Assembly: GCA_947561715.1 (NCBI GenBank) | Contig: OX387199.1 | Location: 10,049,001 to 10,113,000 of the forward strand | DNA from: Ascidia mentula | Lineage: Eukaryota > Chordata > Ascidiacea > Phlebobranchia > Ascidiidae | Direction: 5' to 3' | DNA length: 64,000 nucleotides | Shown: one piece after another, positions 1 through 31,700 of the stretch | Layout of the letters: each line of letters starts with the position of its first letter | Numbering within the stretch: position 1 is the first letter of the stretch | The notes under the pieces: generated by a model | What the model saw: the letters and a program-made list of their open reading frames with translations, nothing else | Database searches by the model: none | Told to the model about the DNA's origin: nothing | Translations under genes and position numbers: made by a program

Positions 1-2420
1 AATTGTCTCCATTCTGTAACGATGGAAACTCAACCCAATCTGGATGAGCGAACTCGTTGCCTACGAAAGGGTTCCTTTTGGTAAACATGTAAAAAAACGT
101 TTACGCCAATAAAGTAATTTACCCATAAAATTCAGGTATGATTTTCCACTGAAGGCATTTGTGATAAGTCTGATCATCTTGTGGAGACTCATTCCTCTGT
201 CCAATCTCGGTGACATTTCCCGCCGGTCCAACATGCACTCATTGTCCATAAGTTGCCTTGCAATCGTCCATTGACAATCCATGCTCTGAACATTAAAATT
301 TATAACATCAGACAATGAATGTTCAAATCTAAAAGTTAAATCGTTAACCTGTTGGTGGTCTTCTGGGTACGTGATATATCTTTCCCCTGTCCTCCGTTCG
401 GACAACATTTGACAAATTTCGCTCATTCCCCAGTTTTCATCCGACATTCCGTTTAATATCTGAAAACGCGAAACCCGTTAGAGTAGAAAATGACGCTCCT
501 TGATGCTGCCATGGTTTTACCTGCATCCATTGACTTGGAATATGCATCGATAATCTGTAATCGAAACCGAATCCACCTTGATTGACAGGACGAGTCAAAC
601 TTGGAAATTCGGTATACTCCTATACGCAGCAAAAAACACACTCTTTAAATCTTTGTTCGATTTTTTGTTGACCAAACAAAGACAAGTCCTACCTCTGCAA
701 TGGTTATGATTTTTGGATAGTATCGATGCAAAATTTTGTTTGCAAGCAATAGGTAAGCCATTGCTCCAATGTCCATGTGCATTCCGAAGTATTGTCGGTA
801 GTTATCAACAGATTGGATGTCTAAAGATCATTAAAAATTTACAAAACAAACGCTTTTTAAGTATTGCAATTGCACTAATACTGATAAGTACATTTACCAG
901 GAATTTGATTGTGGTAGATCATTGGCGTTACTCCATTAAACCGAAAACCGTCGAATCCAAAGTTTTCCACGTAATGACGGAGGTTGGACAGTAAAAATCG
1001 AAGAACTTCCCACCTAAACAAGTTTTTACATGCGCCATCACACAGAGATGATTGTACGTAAACCATCGCAATGCCCCTTACTTTGTAAAGTCAAACTTTC
1101 GCGCGTCATTTTCCCTGAAATCCCGTCTATCAGAACGGAAGAAACACTCATCAGTGCCATCAAAGCGATCTAAACTTTCCCAGCCATTCTTCGATGCGTG
1201 ACTGTGCATAACATCCATCATGACGTAAATTCCCATCCCATGTGCGACGTTTATCAACTCCCTCAGATCGTCAGGAGTCCCATATCGGCTGCGATCATAA
1301 CACAAGTGTTTTTGTAAACTACACGTAATCCTGAACTGAGGCAAAAACTCACAATTCTATCACTAAAACGTGGACTCACCTTGAGGGCGCAAAAAAGTTG
1401 GTAACTTGGTAACCAACGCTCGGATAATAAGGATGCTCCATAATTGCCATGAGAAGCACGCAGTTGTAGCCTAGATCGCGAATGCGAGGAAGAACATCTG
1501 TGGTGAACTGCTTGTAAGAAGATACTTGACAACGATCGGAGCTGATCCCAATGTGAGCTTCGTAAATGCGCAAACGTTCGGGCTTCGAAATTTGATTGTT
1601 TGCAAACTGGAAATAAAGTTTTAATTTGTTTTTCTGTTCGACTCTCGCTTTTGACAACGTGAAGAAAAGCAAACCATATCACGTACTCGTTGACAAGATT
1701 TATTTGAAGACGGATTCCAAAAGCGCCATGTAAACGTTGATCCGCACTGGGTCACGTATTTTGCCCACGGTGAAATTCTTTCCAATATCTGATTGTCTTT
1801 CGTTTCAACCACAAGCTGAAATTAAACAATTTTGTTATTTGTGTTTCCACATCAATGTCTGAGTAAAGCAAGCCATCTACCTTCAGTTCGGATAGATGGT
1901 TTATTGGGCATCTACCATCTCGATTTGGTGGCATGAACATTTCCCACTGACCATATCCGATGTCCTTGTACATTATTTTTTCCCAGTTGTCTGAACAAGC
2001 ATTGTGGCTTAAATACACGAAGAGATTCGATTTGAAGCTACACACTCACTAAAATCTCCCATTAGGTAGACGGCCCTCGCATTGGGAACCCATTCCCTGC
2101 ATTGAATTCCTCCCTCTTGTGTGAGAACAACACCGAAAGTTTCGTAACTTCGACTGAACCGATCCATTCCTTCCTCGCGTTCAATGTCCATCAGCGCTTT
2201 TTCAAACATTCCATATCTACAACACCAATATTAGTTATATTATTTATAGTTACTTGACCAACCTTTAGATTTAATTACAACGGTTTTGTATTTTACTGTC
2301 TTTTATTTACCTAAGTCTGATATCCTTTTCAAAGCTTCTTAATCTTGGGTCATTTGCAAACAAGCTTTCGATTTCGGGAACTCCCCATTGTTGAAGATTG
2401 TCGTGACCTGAGAATTCCAT
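1..2420 (-). CDS. Branching-enzyme-like pseudoenzyme, copy A (3' end outside window)
   Basis: This is the 5' part of the repeated gene: exons 1-11 and the first 60 nt of exon 12, after which the window begins. The start ATG is the complement of 2418-2420 and begins [13 protein letters not shown] element lies at 2528-2534, about 108 bp upstream. The GH13 nucleophile position is an Asn codon at 935-937 in place of the Asp expected in this family. Exons match copy B without indels. The C-terminal beta domain and RS tail are not visible for this copy. Confidence 0.85.
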
Positions 2421-4501
2421 TTTTGCTCCACGATGTGAGATTCGAATCAAAGGTTAAGTAAGCGGTTATAACGCAGCTTGACCGAGATTTCAACGAATGA
2501 TGTGATGTAGGTATGTTGCGATGGAATTTATATAGGGCGTAAAAAGGAAGAAGTTCGCTCTTAATGGGATTGTCGGGCAATAAAGTGAGATTGGCAAGGA
2601 TTAGGATAATAATTTGGAATACAAAGAGACTTGATTATTCAACAATGTTCACAGCTTACCACTACATGAACATAACAGGAAGGAATAAGTTTAATGACAA
2701 TGTAATCCAACTATAATGGTCTGAAATCATTTGTGATGCGAATTTAATTCAATATCACAAAGATTAAAATGCGGGTGCGTTTGGTCGGAATTCAACCAAA
2801 AGTACGCTTACACTTTCTCTTATTCAATAATATGATGCGTTTTGACAATAATGTAAGGTAAACCTCATAAACTTAATGCCACCTCAACAAAATGTCAGGA
2901 ATGAAAAAATTACTTTCACAAAAAAAACCTTTGTACTTGGACGAGTTCCGAGTTATTCAAGGCCGCTCTTGTTGTCTGAATAACGAAAAAGTGACAAAAT
3001 CATTTCCGTATTACGCACAAACGTACTCCTGCTGTCGTAAAGTTTTGGCGACTTTGCTGGCAAAAACGTTTATTTTACATTCGATGCTTCGGTCGGTGTG
3101 CAACTGATCTTTCTCTTTAGCACCATCGTGCGCCGTAAGAATTTAGATTATTTCAGTCGCTCGTGCAATTTGTTCGTAATTGCGTTTTAGTTTGTGTTAC
3201 AAATAAGTTTTTTGTGTGAAGACTATTCCCGTTTTCGATAGACTAGTAAGTCGATGAACAGAAATTATTGTTCCGCAAATATTTAAATGCTCAAAAATGT
3301 GTATCACCAGCTTTTCTGGATTGTCGAATGGTCATTGCTTATATAATATTGACATAATATTTTAACAAACCGCAAACCAGTCGCTTCTCCTGAGATCGTG
3401 GTTGCGACAGCATATAACCAAGCAACGTACGAATTGTCTTTTTTAGTCCGAGTCGCAATGAGCTCGTTCGCTACTATTTTTCTTGTAATATCCACGTGAT
3501 AATATTTGCGTTTGCAATACCTAAGTTTTCCCTTGAAACATTCCGCGGGTAAAATTAATATTTTGCAAACACTTTTCATTCTATCATAGGTAAGCTTGCT
3601 TGACAACTTTCCTCGAGTGCCCATAGGATTTGGCACTTAGTGTCAGTTTGATCACATGCCAACAGCACAACCCTCGCAGCGGGAGCTGCCCGCACATCTG
3701 TATTTCCACTAAAGTAAGTTTGGCCGGCGGTAAAAGACCAACTTGTATTCCTCTGTCACAATGTAACGTACATACGACGTAACAAAGCGATCAGTGACGC
3801 ACGGAGGTCCATTTTTGGTTGAATAGGAACGGGTGCATGTGCTGGTGCTACGTCCAATTTGAGCGTGTTTGGAGGAATTTTTAGTGGATTTAGGGGGGGG
3901 TTTAAAATCATCAGAGTGTTTGTAATACAGGATTAGACATTCTCAGTTGACATTATTTGGGTTGTAAAAACACCAAGAAATGCAATTGAAATTTGCAGAG
4001 ATATGAATCGTGTAGTCTACCTAATCATTTGCGTATTTCTGGCAGTGTATGTTTTACTATGCGTAATTAACATAAAACAACAAACTAGCTGATGCAAACC
4101 AAGCCTCCCACTACGGCTGTTTTGGGATATACTGTCGTCATTGTTTTATGGACGTTCGTTTCGTTGTCACGCTAGACGCACAATTGCCATAAAGATATCC
4201 CGTCTTTAACCGTTATTGAAACTAAACTTTCGTGAAATTACTGGCCATTTAACGAGGGGTACAGAATTTCGGAATCTCCAACAAAACATCATATCGAATT
4301 AAATCTTCACATTGAGTTGATTTTAATTCGGAACATTTACTCCAATAAAGTCCAAAAAACTGTTGTTTATTCAATAATAGCTCTGACAACAATGCAGAAA
4401 TACAAAGGTCATTTTGTGACACAAACAACAAATAAGAATTACAACAATCAACACAGCACAACAAATATGTAGTTTTGTGTGGATATTTTATTTGAAACCA
4501 A
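2421..4501. other. Inter-gene spacer A-B, class 1-like
   Basis: It holds the copy A promoter at its left end. The rest has only short open frames (for example 2892-3107 plus, 3304-3636 minus), whose frames are broken by indels in other units, so I call no gene. The hairpin seen near the equivalent of 8593-8615 has lost its left arm here (about 3115-3135). A run of eight G lies near 3893-3900, and a GC palindrome (GCGGGAGCTGCCCGC) near 3678-3692. Confidence 0.7.
4487..4492 (-). terminator. AATAAA polyadenylation signal (copy B; same in the other copies)
   Basis: AATAAA on the minus strand begins 9 bp after the TGA stop of the last exon, giving a very short 3' UTR. The same spacing is found at the 3' end of every copy from B to L. 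This supports the RS tail being the true end of the protein rather than read-through. Confidence 0.65.
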
Positions 4502-7500
4502 TCAATATCCCGAAGCCCGACGACCCGAAACGCTTGAAAATCCGACAGATCTGGAACGTGACGGGCTACGACCGTTTCGTTGAAATCGATGAGAAGAGCA
4601 GCCAGAAGCATTGTAAACTGGTTGACTTCTGCCAAAACTTGCACATCTGTATGGACTCTTATCTCTTCTCGATTCGCCCAAATTCATCTCCCTCAAGCGA
4701 GTTTCACAGCTCGGCGAACGACCACGACTGTGGCTACGTTCACGACGCCACGGTGAAGTGCTCCGTGAGTTGTAGTCACGGCCGCGATCACGACAATCAT
4801 CGTATCCATAATAAACCCGATTGGCATTCACGTCGTTGGACCAATGAGAAAGGGCGTCGCTCGCCATTACAATAACACAACGTGACGGCAAATAAACCTT
4901 GAGCAAAATAGAAAGATTTAGTGATTCGTTTGAATGACAGTATGATAGCATCTTACCATCAGTGAACATGGGTTATTGTCACACGATTGTTGTTGAGTGT
5001 GGAAATCCACCGAAGCTTCATTTCTACCGTGACCTCCAAACATTTTTTGGTCACTGTCCAAAACAATCTTGTACCTTCAACGCGAAAGGGTGTTATTTAC
5101 GACGGAACGCGAACTGTGCAAGGTATACCCAAACCATACTCACGTTCCTGATGTTCGTACACCGATTCGATAATTGGGATAACTTTGTGTAGGATGAAAG
5201 TTAAACATGAAGACCAGGCCGGCTCTTTCGAATACAATCACTTTCTCATCATCGTGTTGACGTGTAACAAGTCCCTTAAGATCAAATGGATTGTGGAAAC
5301 GTGCACTGCAAGTGAATATACCAACGGAAAAAATAATTATCCTATACCTGAGGGGAACTTAGCCAACCAAATCGTTCTTCCAAACGGTTAATTGCGATAT
5401 CGAAATTATTGAGGTATTTGTATCTCAGCTGCTGGTCATCAGCAAGCTCAAACTGTCTTCTTGCCAGTTGGTAATTGTCTCCATTCTGTAACGATGGAAA
5501 CTCAACCCAATCTGGATGAGCGAACTCGTTGCCTACGAAAGGGTTCCTTTTGGTAAACATGTAAAAAAACGTTTACGCCAATAAAGTAATTTACCCATAA
5601 AATTCAGGTATGATTTTCCACTGAAGGCATTTGTGATAAGTCTGATCATCTTGTGGAGACTCATTCCTCTGTCCAATCTCGGTGACATTTCCCGCCGGTC
5701 CAACATGCACTCATTGTCCATAAGTTGCCTTGCAATCGTCCATTGACAATCCATGCTCTGAACATTAAAATTTATAACATCAGACAATGAATGTTCAAAT
5801 CTAAAAGTTAAATCGTTAACCTGTTGGTGGTCTTCTGGGTACGTGATATATCTTTCCCCTGTCCTCCGTTCGGACAACATTTGACAAATTTCGCTCATTC
5901 CCCAGTTTTCATCCGACATTCCGTTTAATATCTGAAAACGCGAAACCCGTTAGAGTAGAAAATGACGCTCCTTGATGCTGCCATGGTTTTACCTGCATCC
6001 ATTGACTTGGAATATGCATCGATAATCTGTAATCGAAACCGAATCCACCTTGATTGACAGGACGAGTCAAACTTGGAAATTCGGTATACTCCTATACGCA
6101 GCAAAAAACACACTCTTTAAATCTTTGTTCGATTTTTTGTTGACCAAACAAAGACAAGTCCTACCTCTGCAATGGTTATGATTTTTGGATAGTATCGATG
6201 CAAAATTTTGTTTGCAAGCAATAGGTAAGCCATTGCTCCAATGTCCATGTGCATTCCGAAGTATTGTCGGTAGTTATCAACAGATTGGATGTCTAAAGAT
6301 CATTAAAAATTTACAAAACAAACGCTTTTTAAGTATTGCAATTGCACTAATACTGATAAGTACATTTACCAGGAATTTGATTGTGGTAGATCATTGGCGT
6401 TACTCCATTAAACCGAAAACCGTCGAATCCAAAGTTTTCCACGTAATGACGGAGGTTGGACAGTAAAAATCGAAGAACTTCCCACCTAAACAAGTTTTTA
6501 CATGCGCCATCACACAGAGATGATTGTACGTAAACCATCGCAATGCCCCTTACTTTGTAAAGTCAAACTTTCGCGCGTCATTTTCCCTGAAATCCCGTCT
6601 ATCAGAACGGAAGAAACACTCATCAGTGCCATCAAAGCGATCTAAACTTTCCCAGCCATTCTTCGATGCGTGACTGTGCATAACATCCATCATGACGTAA
6701 ATTCCCATCCCATGTGCGACGTTTATCAACTCCCTCAGATCGTCAGGAGTCCCATATCGGCTGCGATCATAACACAAGTGTTTTTGTAAACTACACGTAA
6801 TCCTGAACTGAGGCAAAAACTCACAATTCTATCACTAAAACGTGGACTCACCTTGAGGGCGCAAAAAAGTTGGTAACTTGGTAACCAACGCTCGGATAAT
6901 AAGGATGCTCCATAATTGCCATGAGAAGCACGCAGTTGTAGCCTAGATCGCGAATGCGAGGAAGAACATCTGTGGTGAACTGCTTGTAAGAAGATACTTG
7001 ACAACGATCGGAGCTGATCCCAATGTGAGCTTCGTAAATGCGCAAACGTTCGGGCTTCGAAATTTGATTGTTTGCAAACTGGAAATAAAGTTTTAATTTG
7101 TTTTTCTGTTCGACTCTCGCTTTTGACAACGTAAAGAAAAGCAAACCATATCACGTACTCGTTGACAAGATTTATTTGAAGACGGATTCCAAAAGCGCCA
7201 TGTAAACGTTGATCCGCACTGGGTCACGTATTTTGCCCACGGTGAAATTCTTTCCAATATCTGATTGTCTTTCGTTTCAACCACAAGCTGAAATTAAACA
7301 ATTTTGTTATTTGTGTTTCCACATCAATGTCTGAGTAAAGCAAGCCATCTACCTTCAGTTCGGATAGATGGTTTATTGGGCATCTACCATCTCGATTTGG
7401 TGGCATAAACATTTCCCACTGACCATATCCGATGTCCTTGTACATTATTTTTTCCCAGTTGTCTGAACAAGCATTGTGGCTTAAATACACGAAGAGATTC

Positions 7501-20117: not shown

Positions 20118-20126
20118 CGCAGCGGG
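20118..20126. repeat. Target site duplication, left copy
   Basis: CGCAGCGGG here and again at 22399-22407. All other units have this 9-mer once, followed by AGCTGCCCGC, which gives the empty site directly. The G and C runs at the junctions allow a 7-bp reading, but 9 bp is the longest consistent one. Confidence 0.9.
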
Positions 20127-20338
20127 GGTAGATGCTAAAGAACCACCCCACAGCTAGGTCGGCAATTGTGGTCATAGAAATCGTGCAAATATGGGGTATA
20201 TTGGTTTTGGTATAGAGTAAACAAACACCTGTCAAATTAATTTGGTAGCATTATTTAAATATCAATTAATTTTTAATCATTTGCCGAACTAGCATCTGAT
20301 GCCGAAATAACAGTAATACCTTGTAGGTCTCATGTAGG
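20127..20338 (+). repeat. Left terminal inverted repeat
   Basis: These 212 bp are the reverse complement of 22187-22398 apart from one base (CAGCTAGG against CAGCTTGG). The match ends at 20338, the base that mirrors the second base of the right-hand coding exon. The left repeat therefore holds an antisense copy of the gene's last exon. Confidence 0.95.
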
Positions 20339-20492
20339 GATATCACGGAATGAACGGCGGGAAAGAAATCACGTGAACAAGGTCCTTTTTTGCAGCGTGC
20401 GATGGCGTTTGTGTGGTTTCATAAGAAAAGTTATTTGTATAACTGTACGTTGTTAGTATTCTTTATTTAATAATGCTTTTGTTAATTTAGAA
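20339..20492 (+). promoter_or_regulatory. Upstream region of the micro-exon gene with acceptor-like sites
   Basis: These 154 bp lie between the left inverted repeat and the first called ATG. They contain two 3'-splice-like motifs: CCTTTTTTGCAG near 20384-20395 and GTTAATTTAG ending at 20490, two bases before AAATGG. They could be trans-splice acceptors, or belong to an upstream short exon starting at ATGGCG (20402). No clear TATA box was found. Confidence 0.4.
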
Positions 20493-22236
20493 ATGGAGTT
20501 TAACTTTAATTCCGTTCAATCGGTGGTGGTTAACCACCACCACCATCACCACCACCAGCAACAACCCAAAAAGGTAGGTGGAGAATTACTTGCATATTTT
20601 TTGTTGAAAAAATATACGTTTGACATAATTTTATGTTCACAGAAATTTGCAACGCGAAAAAGGTAAGAATAACACTTCTTTATACTAAAATTTTGGACGG
20701 CTATTGTTATGACACTAATACATGGTGTCAGTGTCCGATAGTAACACCCCTGAATGCAAAGATGTGCATTGGGTAATTGTTGAGTGCACCAGATAAAATT
20801 TAAAACCTCATGCACAAGATAAAGTTGAAGACAAGCATAGTTTTATTTTTGTGGTGGTGTCCACTGATTACCCCTTTACTTTAACTGAATATATTTTATA
20901 GATTCCTCGAAAAGGAGGAATTTTGCCGGCTGCAATCGTAAGATACTTGTTATACATGTTGCGTTTATTAACCAAATCTTTATGATGCCCATTAAAAACA
21001 TGTAGAAAAGTGTTGGTCTTGTTGTTGGGTTCTTAAACTGTGCAAGTTATGCTCAAAAATGAATTTTTTGGAAGAAATGCTGTCAATGAACAAGCCAATT
21101 CTGTGACCAATAATGTAATTGCCCTGATAGATTTTGAAATTGTGTGTCGCAAATGCCATGAGTGTTTGCAAGTGCATTACATCCAGAAATATTGGGAGCC
21201 AACTGAGATCGTAAACAAAGTATTGTTACTAAATTAATCACAGTTGAATCAAGTTTTTGCCAACCAACACACTTTTTTTAATTTAGTGAAAACAAGATCC
21301 CCAAAACATCGGAGTAAGTGGTGTCATTACTGTCATATAAAATAAGTTGACAAGTAAAGAATTTTATCTCATTTAATTTTTTACAGATGGGTCCCAGAAG
21401 AAATTTTCTGGAAGAGACATGTAAAAATACTAATCTTTATACTTATATATAACACTATTTAGTACGTGCATAAACACTATTTAAATCTGGTTATTGTAAG
21501 TCTATGTAGTGTGCTATTGGCTAATAACTACTAATCAGTTTTGTTTCTGTTTTAGAGGCAGACAGAGAAAGGAGCAAATGTGAGTGAATATTCTTTCCTA
21601 TTATTGTAGCATACTAAGCTATTGGTTTATAAATACTAATCAGTTTTGTTTCTGTTTTAGAGGCAGACAGAGAAAGGAGCAAATGTGAGTGAATATTCTT
21701 TCCTATTATTGTAGCATACTAAGCTATTGGTTTATAAATACTAATCAGTTTTGTTTCTGTTTTAGAGTCAGGCAGAGAAAGGAGCAAATGTGAGTGAATA
21801 TTCTTTCCTATTATTGTAGCGTACTAAGCTATTGGTTTATAAATACTAATCAGTTTTGTTTCTGTTTTAGAGTCAGGCAGAGAAAGGAGCAAATGTGAGT
21901 GAATATTCTTTCCTATTATTGTAGCATACTAAGCTATTGGTTTATAAATACTAATCAGTTTTGTTTCTGTTTTAGAGTCAGGCAGAGAAAGGAGCAAATG
22001 TGAGTGAATATTCTTTCCTATTATTGTAGCATACTAAGCTATTGGTTCATAAATACTAATCAGTTTTGTTTCTGTTTTAGAGTCAGACAGAGAAAGGAGC
22101 AAATGTGAGTGAATATTCTTTCCTATTATTGTAGTGTACTAAGCTATTGGTTTATAAATACTAATCAGTTTTGTTTCTGTTTTAGACCTACATGAGACCT
22201 ACAAGGTATTACTGTTATTTCGGCATCAGATGCTAG
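20493..22236 (+). CDS. Micro-exon gene carried by the transposon (130 residues, 12 exons)
   Basis: Exons: 20493-20573, 20643-20662, 20902-20937, 21287-21313, 21387-21420, six 24-nt exons (21556-21579, 21661-21684, 21766-21789, 21871-21894, 21976-21999, 22081-22104), and 22186-22236. All introns are GT-AG and the frame stays open to TAG at 22234-22236. The protein starts MEFNFNSVQSVVVN, has seven His then QQQPKK, a charged middle part (EWVPEEIFWKRH), six 8-residue repeats of the form (R/S)Q(T/A)EKGAN, and ends TYMRPTRYYCYFGIRC. No known domain or signal peptide is recognised. The last exon lies in the right inverted repeat, and ATTAAA at 22248-22253 may serve as its polyadenylation signal. The layout resembles schistosome micro-exon genes, but no homology is claimed. 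The start is uncertain, since a second frame is also open. Function unknown. Confidence 0.7.
20663..20901 (+). other. Intron 2 of the micro-exon gene
   Basis: This is a 239-bp intron from GTAAGAATAA to TTTTATAG. Nothing further is recognised inside it. Confidence 0.6.
20938..21286 (+). other. Intron 3 of the micro-exon gene, containing a short open frame
   Basis: This is the longest intron, 349 bp (GTAAGATACT to TTTAATTTAG). It holds an open frame from ATG at 21049 to 21237 with a Cys-rich patch CRKCHEC. It has no splice sites that keep the gene's frame and may be chance or a remnant of older coding sequence. Confidence 0.4.
21556..22185 (+). repeat. Six exact 105-bp tandem repeats, each a 24-nt exon plus an 81-nt intron
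   Basis: The period is exactly 105 bp in all six units. Each has the acceptor TTTCTGTTTTAG, a 24-nt exon, the donor GTGAGTGAAT, and a branch-point-like TACTAAT about 20 nt before the next acceptor. Exons vary at only two bases: units 1-2 code RQTEKGAN, 3-5 SQAEKGAN and 6 SQTEKGAN. The sequence before unit 1 (TGCTATTGGCTAATAACTACTAATCAG) is a diverged form of the repeated intron end, suggesting where the duplication began. Confidence 0.95.
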
Positions 22237-22398
22237 TTCGGCAAATGATTAAAAATTAATTGATATTTAAATAATGCTACCAAATTAATTTGACAGGTGT
22301 TTGTTTACTCTATACCAAAACCAATATACCCCATATTTGCACGATTTCTATGACCACAATTGCCGACCAAGCTGTGGGGTGGTTCTTTAGCATCTACC
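22187..22398 (-). repeat. Right terminal inverted repeat, also coding
   Basis: This mirrors 20127-20338 with one mismatch. The inner boundary lies one base into the last coding exon of the micro-exon gene (22186-22236), so the final 16 residues, the stop codon and the putative 3' end signal are made of inverted-repeat sequence. Confidence 0.95.
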
Positions 22399-22407
22399 CG
22401 CAGCGGG
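22399..22407. repeat. Target site duplication, right copy
   Basis: CGCAGCGGG, matching 20118-20126. It is followed by AGCTGCCCGC, the normal continuation of the spacer in all other units. Confidence 0.9.
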
Positions 22408-28703: not shown

Positions 28704-31700
28704 TCAATATCCCGAAGCTCGACGACCAGAAACGCCTGAAAATCCAACAGATCTGGAACGTGACGGGCTACGCCCGTTTTGCAGAAATCGATGAGAAGAG
28801 CAGCCAGAAGCATTGTAAACTGGTTGACTTCTACCAAAACTTGCACATCTGTATGGACTCTTATCTCTTCTCGATTCGCCCAAATTCATCTCCCTCAAGC
28901 GAGTTTCACAGCTCGGCGAACGACCACGACTGTGGCTACGTTCACGACGCCACGGTGAAGTGCTCCGCGAGTTGTAGTCACGGCCGCGATCACGACAATC
29001 ATCGTATCCATAATAAACCCGATTGGCATTCACGTCGTTGGACCAATGAGAAAGGGCGTCGCTCGCCATTACAATAACACAACGTGACGGCAAATAAACC
29101 TTGAGCAAAATAGAAAGATGTAGTGATTCGTTTGAATGACAGTATGATAGCATCTTACCATCAGTGAACATGGGTTATTGTCACACGATTGTTGTTGAGT
29201 GTGGAAATCCACCGAAGCTTCATTTCTACCGTGACCTCCAAACATTTTTTGGTCACTGTCCAAAACAATCTTGTACCTTCAACGCGAAAGTGTGTTATTT
29301 ACGACGGAACGCGAACTGTGCATAGGGTATACCCAAACCATATGCATACTCACGTTCCTGATGTTCGTACACCGATTCGATAATTGGGATAACTTTTTGT
29401 AGGATGAAAGTTAAACATGAAGACCAGGCCGGCTCTTTCGAATACAATCACTTTCTCATCATCGTGTTGACGTGTAACAAGTCCCTAAGATCAATTGGAT
29501 TGTGGAAACGTGCACTGCAAGTGAATACCAACGGAAACAATAATTATCCTATACCTGAGGGGAACTTAACCAACCAAATCGTTCTTCCAAACGGTTAATT
29601 GCGATATCGAAATTATTGAGGTATTTGTATCTCAGCTGCTTGTCATCAGCAAGCTCAAACTGTCTTCTTGCCAGTTGGTAATTGTCTCCATTCTGTAACG
29701 ATGGAAACTCAACCCAATCTGGATGAGCGAACTCGTTGCCTGCGAAAGGGTTCCTTTTGGTAAACATGTAAAACAACGTTTATGCCAATAAAGTAATTTA
29801 CCCATAAAATTCAGGTATGATTTTCCACTGAAGGCATTTGTGATAAGTCTGATCATCTTGTGGAGACTCATTCCTCTGTCCAATCTCGGTGACATTTCCC
29901 GCCGGTCCAACATACACTCATTGTCCATAAGTTGCCTTGCAATCGTCCATTGACAATCCATGCTCTGAACATTAAAATTTATAACATCAGACAATGAATG
30001 TTCAAATCTAAAAGTTAAATCGTTAACCTGTTGGTGGTCTTCTGGGTACGTGATATATCTTTCCCCTGTCCTCCGTTCGGACAACATTTGACAAATTTCG
30101 CTCATTCCCCAGTTTTCATCCGACATTCCGTTTAATATCTGAAAACGCGAAACCCGTTACAGTAGAAAATGACGCTCCTTGATGCTGCCATGGTTTTACC
30201 TGCATCCATTGACTTGGAATATGCATCGATAATCTGTAATCGAAACCGAATCCACCTTGATTGACAGGACGAGTCAAACTTGGAAATTCGGTATACTCCT
30301 ATACGCAGCAAAAAACACACTCTTTAAATCTTTGTTCGATTTTTTGTTGACCAAACAAAGACAAGTCCTACCTCTGCAATGGTTATGATTTTTGGATAGT
30401 ATCGATGCAAAATTTTGTTTGCAAGCAATAGGTAAGCCATTGCTCCAATGTCCATGTGCATTCCGAAGTATTGTCGGTAGTTATCAACAGATTGGATGTC
30501 TAAAGATCATTAAAAATTTACAAAACAAACGCTTTTTAAGTATTGCAATTGCACTAATACTGATAAGTACATTTACCAGGAATTTGATTGTGGTAGATCA
30601 TTGGCGTTACTCCATTAAACCGAAAACCGTCGAATCCAAAGTTTTCCACGTAATAACGGAGGTTGGACAGTAAAAATCGAAGAACTTCCCACCTAAACAA
30701 GTTTTTACATGCGCCATCACACAGAGATGATTGTACGTAAACCATCGCAATGCCCCTTACTTTGTAAAGTCAAACTTTCGCGCGTCATTTTCCCTGAAAT
30801 CCCGTCTATCAGAACGGAAGAAACACTCATCAGTGCCATCAAAGCGATCTAAACTTTCCCAGCCATTCTTCGATGCGTGACTGTGCATAACATCCATCAT
30901 GACGTAAATTCCCATCCCATGTGCGACGTTTATCAACTCCCTCAGATCGTCAGGAGTCCCATATCGGCTGCGATCATGACACAAGTGTTTTTGTAAACTA
31001 CACGTAATCCTGAACTGAGGCAAAAACTCACAATTCTATCACTAAAACGTGGACTCACCTTGAGGGCGCAAAAAAGTTGGTAACTTGGTAACCAACGCTC
31101 GGATAATAAGGATGCTCCATAATTGCCATGAGAAGCACGCAGTTGTAGCCTAGATCGCGAATGCGAGGAAGAACATCTGTGGTGAACTGCTTGTAAGAAG
31201 ATACTTGACAACGATCGGAGCTGATCCCAATGTGAGCTTCGTAAATGCGCAAACGTTCGGGCTTCGAAATTTGATTGTTTGCAAACTGGAAATAAAGTTT
31301 TAATTTGTTTTTCTGTTCGGCTCTCGCTTTTGACAACGTGAAGAAAAGCAAACCATATCACGTACTCGTTGACAAGATTTATTTGAAGACGGATTCCAAA
31401 AGCGCCATGTAAACGTTGATCCGCACTGGGTCACGTATTTTGCCCACGGTGAAATTCTTTCCAATATCTGATTGTCTTTCGTTTCAACCACAAGCTGAAA
31501 TTAAACAATTTTGTTATTTGTGTTTCCACATCAATGTCTGAGTAAAGCAAGCCATCTACCTTCAGTTCGGATAGATGGTTTATTGGGCATCTACCATCTC
31601 GATTTGGTGGCATGAACATTTCCCACTGACCATATCCGATGTCCTTGTACATTATTTTTTCCCAGTTGTCTGAACAAGCATTGTGGCTTAAATACACGAA

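Follow-up and report, generated by a model that had tools for sequence, protein, structure and literature searches.

The element that interrupts a tandem array in the genome of Ascidia mentula is very probably the non-autonomous product of an internal deletion in a two-gene tunicate Mutator-like DNA transposon (MULE), in which a micro-exon gene (MEG) is the second, accessory gene. We call it a non-autonomous derivative because the deletion removed the transposase from a two-gene transposon. A tunicate host is also indicated by the COX1 sequence on contig C79, where the glycines expected in motifs such as GFGNW and GTGWT come out as Gly only when AGA/AGG are translated that way, as in the mitochondrial code of tunicates; translation table 5 puts Ser there.

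The window (the whole 64-kb stretch of tunicate DNA that was analysed) is a tandem array with units of ~5.48 kb (commonest k-mer spacings 5471-5490), and a single unit is broken by the element at 20127-22398. Its 212-bp terminal inverted repeats (TIRs; left, 20127-20338, plus strand; right, 22187-22398, minus strand) differ from each other by one mismatch, and a 9-bp target-site duplication (TSD), CGCAGCGGG, lies on both sides (20118-20126 and 22399-22407). These borders, repeats and duplication agree to the base with the original prediction, as does its statement that every other unit has the empty site: counting complete units only, with an eleventh unit running off the window end, the site is empty in 10 of 10 (at 3675, 9162, 14633, 27878, 33367, 38851, 44337, 47580, 53059 and 58531), and the joined flanks of the element align gap-free to these units at 97.5-99.0% identity. 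The host array itself carries a Ser/Arg-rich minus-strand ORF of 155 residues in 11 listed copies, includes one unit of just 3.24 kb, and has a 164-residue minus-strand ORF at 29632-30126 that is listed for one unit only. Pfam searches with both ORFs gave no match, nor did the window sequence match Rfam.

The interior of the window copy is a predicted 12-exon gene on the plus strand, with exons of 81, 20, 36, 27, 34 and 6 x 24 nt and a last exon that extends into the right TIR. The predicted exon borders are GT..AG and splicing in silico yields 130 open codons, so that the 12-exon interior and its open frame, both part of the original prediction, stand. Exon 1 (20493-20573, 81 nt) opens with Met and continues with a His/Gln-rich stretch (MEFNFNSVQSVVVNHHHHHHHQQQPKK); it is followed by exon 2 (20643-20662, 20 nt), exon 3 (20902-20937, 36 nt, FLEKEEFCRLQ), exon 4 (21287-21313, 27 nt, ENKIPKTS) and exon 5 (21387-21420, 34 nt, WVPEEIFWKRH). 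Next comes a tandem array of 105-bp repeats, each a micro-exon plus intron, in 6.4 copies (21513-22186), and one 24-nt exon lies in each repeat: RQTEKGAN at 21556-21579 and 21661-21684, SQAEKGAN at 21766-21789, 21871-21894 and 21976-21999, and SQTEKGAN at 22081-22104. The terminal exon (22186-22236) joins the last array acceptor to the right TIR and encodes TYMRPTRYYCYFGIRC before a stop. Ten of the 12 exons are no longer than 36 nt and six are 24-nt phase-0 exons, so the gene consists mainly of short symmetric exons. If spliced and translated, it would give a small, basic, charged protein (MEFNFNSVQSVVVNHHHH...) with a conserved ~32-residue block from exons 3-5 and a tail of 8-residue repeats. 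Inspection by eye found no hydrophobic leader in this predicted protein, and no Pfam family scored above its cut-off.

A genome search with the left TIR returned at least 45 matches (40 of 47 candidates were scored, and the total is a lower bound), and the terminus recurs in nine other paired or partial loci, plus more. Paired TIRs delimit copies of two size classes. One short copy, L009 (2.05 kb), resembles the window copy, and three long copies have the same ends (L010, 7.8 kb; L011, 9.7 kb; L012, 8.3 kb); read by eye, each of the four has its own 9-bp TSD. In the Pfam run, for which L010 was the one long copy used, this copy had ALS2CR8, ZSWIM RNaseH-like, MULE, SWIM, Peptidase_C48 (Ulp1) and PHD domains above curated cut-offs, with PF10551 at 38.5 bits against a cut-off of 27.6, the PHD finger PF00628 at 29.3 bits against 24, and a further match to PF21056; a search of the RNase H exon against the PDB gave no match. 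The two large transposase exons are open also in L011 and L012. All three long copies carry the MEG on the strand opposite the transposase and convergent with it. Their MEG has additional exons 3' of the 24-nt array, and its 3' end is open with a 35-nt exon and equally open when that exon is skipped. Each long copy begins and ends with similar sequence over ~293 bp, so that the transposase gene and the MEG set out from near-identical DNA. In the full element, the transposase gene reads inward from one end and the MEG inward from the other, the two meeting near the middle.

Like MULEs, which have TSDs of 8-11 bp, the family has a 9-bp TSD and long TIRs and, in its autonomous relatives, the MULE transposase domain, which the window copy itself does not carry. 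The original prediction had suggested a search for an autonomous relative with the same ends and a MULE-type transposase, and L010, L011 and L012 are such relatives. They also change how the cargo is to be understood. A micro-exon gene in place of a transposase describes the window copy correctly and the family wrongly, as the long copies carry both genes, and a host micro-exon gene as sole cargo is ruled out by these same copies, with transposase and MEG together.

The same termini occur in older MITE-like copies and single ends (L013-L017 and L018-L026). Of these, L013-L017 are ~2.0-2.3 kb long, have TIRs 82-89% identical where whole, and retain little of the MEG; their deletion junctions are common among themselves and unlike those of the window copy.

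Between the convergent genes lies a ~95-bp block (L010:5889-5993, minus strand) that is kept across many MULE families, with at least 40 genome matches at 81-100% identity (40 of 53 candidates scored). We considered a coding C-terminal MEG exon inside it, which is open in L010 and F030, and rejected it; the block is taken as non-coding because other families have 1-2 nt indels and stops there. Among 10 chosen sequences, a 6-bp helix in the block has two pairs changed on both sides; this count of two double changes was as high in 31 of 500 shuffles, and the covariation score was reached by 8 of 500. L010 had no match in Rfam.

The window copy aligns to L012 1-2006 and 8056-8267, with the ~6.0 kb between absent; the left deletion point falls within the array and is ambiguous to the exact base. 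L009 joins at the same 8056 of L012 with junction letters identical to those of the window copy. In both copies, the deletion took out the transposase together with the 3' exons of the MEG, and the cut falls inside the MEG. A single deletion fused the last array acceptor to the opposite TIR: at the junction, the splice acceptor that would have served a further micro-exon abuts the TIR, and therefore the last exon reads through TIR sequence to a stop. Because two copies with different TSDs share one junction, the deleted form either moved itself or arose once and was copied, and the predicted mobility of a TIR element with a micro-exon gene inside is upheld. The deleted product would be mobilised in trans, presumably by the transposase of full copies.

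The MEG frame is open in all five young copies examined, and a 12-base deletion in the MEG of L009 is in frame. The original prediction had named interiors with randomly broken frames as a finding that would count against it; such breaks did not appear among these five, and the older L013-L017 are without most of the gene. Among the young copies (n = 5), variable columns number 5 of 222 in exons versus 5 of 865 in introns. Exons are thus at least as variable as introns, and no purifying selection is evident at this level.

To older relatives the longest transposase exon, used as query, led with at least 87 genome matches (72 of 236 candidates scored). We read 11 further MULE loci past the transposase, and in five of them a whole or partial MEG runs towards it: F030 and F031 (82-84% transposase-exon identity), F032 (66%), F034 (61%) and F050 (49%). 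In the other six (F035, F036, F042, F046, F049 and F052; F036 and F042 also by eye) the MEG was not found. Separately, L033 and L054 have array matches within their short flanks. The N-terminus encoded by exon 1 has a like counterpart in F032, F034 and F050, and exons 3-5 measure 36/27/34 nt in the window family, F032 and F034 and 36/27/31 nt in F050, with exon entries of F034 and F050 in phase 2 as in the window MEG. The protein block of these exons reads FLEKEEFCRLQSENKIPKTSEWVPEEIFWKRH in the window family, FLPYRRFKKLQEQNKIPQTAQWVTAEIFFGTN in F032, YLTQSEFRKLQDMNKMPKTAKWAPPQYFQEN in F050 and YLSRQQFQEKQSEGLISATARWLNHKTWKDYQ in F034. Block scores among the window family, F032 and F050 are 70-81 versus shuffle maxima of 24-32 (2000 shuffles), and F034 scores 30-39, a level reached by 0 of 5000 shuffles. 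At the DNA level, blastn with the MEG region of the window family (E<=1e-3) matched neither F034 nor F050, and its one match in F032 spans 36 bases across the exon-5 acceptor; introns do not align between the window-family MEG and the relatives at 49-66%. Judged by these sequences, the MEG looks real and old.

The individual relatives differ in quality. F030 has no exons 2-4 and the MEG of F031 is partly decayed (by eye). In F032, exon 2 is out of phase as drawn and the frame is not open; this locus adjoins another transposase copy, and its MEG was assigned through convergence and the intergenic block. The F034 gene model is a fitted one because its first acceptor choice gave a stop and a second was chosen; the transposase exon of F034 also contains a stop. 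F050 has one array exon of 23 nt (by eye) and a provisional 3' end to its MEG model. A scan with motifs of exons 3-5 cannot count as independent discovery because its patterns were taken from the very sequences concerned; on simulated sequence (10 Mb) it gave two hits to exon 3 and three to exon 4, and it missed F034, which was found via its array and then by eye. We note that an acceptor-like TTTAG or TTGCAG stands directly 5' of the exon-1 ATG in the window copy, F032 and F034. This motif could belong to a non-coding exon further upstream, or it could be a site for trans-splicing of a spliced leader, a process that occurs in tunicates.

These relatives bear on whether the MEG was instead a host micro-exon gene captured by a non-autonomous element in the manner of a Pack-MULE, the long copies gaining it later. 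MULEs that carry host gene fragments are known, as the passages of PMC6446971 on gene capture describe, and the window copy does have a MEG and no transposase. Yet the MEG is convergent to the transposase in L010-L012, its exon lengths recur in F032, F034 and F050, the deletion junction of the window copy cuts inside it, and its predicted protein stays below every Pfam cut-off. In addition, a DNA search, which is blind to a diverged host parent, found no near-full MEG copy outside elements of the family. We therefore regard capture from the host as very unlikely indeed, and the window copy was not classed as a Pack-MULE, since its interior belongs to the second gene of the autonomous element itself.

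Arrays of 24-nt exons occur in four families, each with a different 8-residue unit: RQTEKGAN with a period of 105 bp, RQVQKEDN with ~98 bp, DDSAPKKG with 82 bp, and IDKAKVPE/INEDKAPK with 101 bp. Units in all four hold a stop-free 24-nt exon with acceptor and donor. Within the window family, the number of micro-exons varies among copies, as had been anticipated: 6 in the window copy, 4 in L009, 3 in L010, 21 in L011 and 8 in L012. Because every tandem DNA repeat brings one 24-nt phase-0 exon, and with it one 8-residue unit, gain or loss of repeats never breaks the frame. In full copies, the array lies inside the MEG, ~1.4 kb from the element end. Tandem repeats of other kinds were also seen: a 71-bp repeat (CACAGCATAGTGGCATATACACC...) near the transposase 3' side is common to F046 (L067+L046), F049 (L065+L049) and F050 (L063+L050), and F036 (L060+L036) has at 2385-3863 a 57-bp repeat x26 downstream of another MULE transposase, in which no micro-exon was recognised.

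It could be asked whether such arrays act simply as DNA, as sub-terminal binding sites or a spacer satellite, their exon look being decay or coincidence. The 71-bp and 57-bp repeats, at a similar place in other families and with no recognised exon, fit this, as do the mini-satellites near an end that the relevant passages of PMC6446971 report for MULE and Rehavkus relatives. Against it, the stop-free 24-nt exon and its splice sites are held in four families whose periods differ (82, ~98, 101 and 105 bp), and the upstream exons are alike in length, phase and protein. We consider a purely DNA-level role very unlikely and retain the reading of the arrays as coding parts of the MEG.

Across 37 aligned array units, 4 of the 24 exon columns are variable, each at intermediate frequency, all four changing the amino acid and none involving an indel; the 81 intron columns include four with substitutions (three of them singletons) and two with indels. 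These sequences hint, from few sites, that the MEG tail changes fast. One possible cause is conflict with the host, in which the N-terminal block would keep the function of the protein while the micro-exon tail is repeatedly rebuilt to evade a host factor. The tail does differ among families as exons 3-5 stay similar, and the contrast between non-synonymous exon columns at intermediate frequency and mostly singleton intron columns is what such conflict could leave; however, the sites are few, homogenisation of an array can mimic the pattern, about three-quarters of random exon changes are non-synonymous anyway, and there is no known host factor. We thus treat a host-conflict protein as conceivable but somewhat doubtful.

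Our literature search, with Repbase Reports and most subscription papers outside its scope, found no MULE with a micro-exon gene. Two-gene MULEs are known; one whose second gene is a micro-exon gene was, to our knowledge, not, and none appeared in the literature searched, so that the arrangement is in that sense new. Maize MuDR and other two-gene MULEs resemble the family here in pairing a MULE transposase with another gene and in their long TIRs and 9-bp TSD. The two genes of MuDR likewise start near opposite ends and run towards each other. Unlike the second genes described for these MULEs, the MEG consists mostly of micro-exons and grows by whole 24-nt exons. Accessory genes described in the passages of PMC6446971 on this subject are mudrB beside mudrA in MuDR, vanB and vanC in VANDAL/Hiun, and mutB in fungal Mutyl.

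Among animal MULEs, Rehavkus resembles the family in its 9-bp TSD and the PHD finger of its transposase. Tandem repeats before an end may be a further resemblance: a mini-satellite before the 3' TIR is given as a Rehavkus feature (PMC6446971) and a 164-bp repeat is reported in the inverted termini of Rehavkus-1_TC (PMC6446971, PMC10218199), and the array here lies towards one end but, in full copies, inside the MEG. It is set apart by description: the passages on it in these two sources place it in arthropods and annelids, with one ORF and no second gene described. Phantom MULEs have tunicate members, TSDs of 8-10 bp and, in some, a SWIM domain, as here; they have one or two ORFs and, in aphids, a mini-satellite after the transposase ORF, and PHD and Ulp1 are not listed for them in the corresponding passages of PMC6446971, a comparison made by description.

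Like the MEG, schistosome micro-exon genes are built mainly from symmetric exons of no more than 36 bp, whose omission leaves the frame intact; the passages of PMC8293314 that characterise them present worm genes for host-exposed proteins and describe them as schistosome-restricted. The MEG, in contrast, is transposon-borne, belongs to a tunicate and has no evident signal peptide by inspection. The parallel that the original prediction drew to these host genes therefore finds no support, given the tunicate host, the lack of an evident leader and a MEG similarly placed in several MULE families. Aphid bicycle genes have many micro-exons. As the MEG does, they form a fast-evolving family recognised via gene structure and not sequence, but as far as PMC9168663 describes them they belong to the aphid and are not carried by a transposon.

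What the MEG does may be suggested by analogy with plant MULEs, for which the relevant passages of PMC6446971 report that mudrB is apparently required for integration and that vanC acts in anti-silencing. We accordingly place first the idea that the MEG product serves the transposon as an accessory factor in the nucleus, either an integration helper or an anti-silencing protein, a proposal to which we give about even weight. A bolder generalisation, which we think improbable, is that the standard second gene of an animal MULE clan would be a self-diversifying protein, a weapon in an arms race with host silencing or host binding, whose tail grows by duplication of 24-nt phase-0 exons and has been renewed independently in several families; the 'mini-satellites' of Rehavkus and aphid Phantom would then be unrecognised micro-exon arrays.

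Before tandem repeats within DNA transposons are named satellites, a search of them for micro-exons is advisable, and gene finders blind to 24-nt exons will have missed such genes. For the family itself, the non-autonomous copies with the MEG alone are a natural test of MEG action in trans. More broadly, the arrangement is a form of frame-safe protein evolution, in which a tandem repeat with one in-frame exon can expand and shrink freely and protein length varies cost-free.
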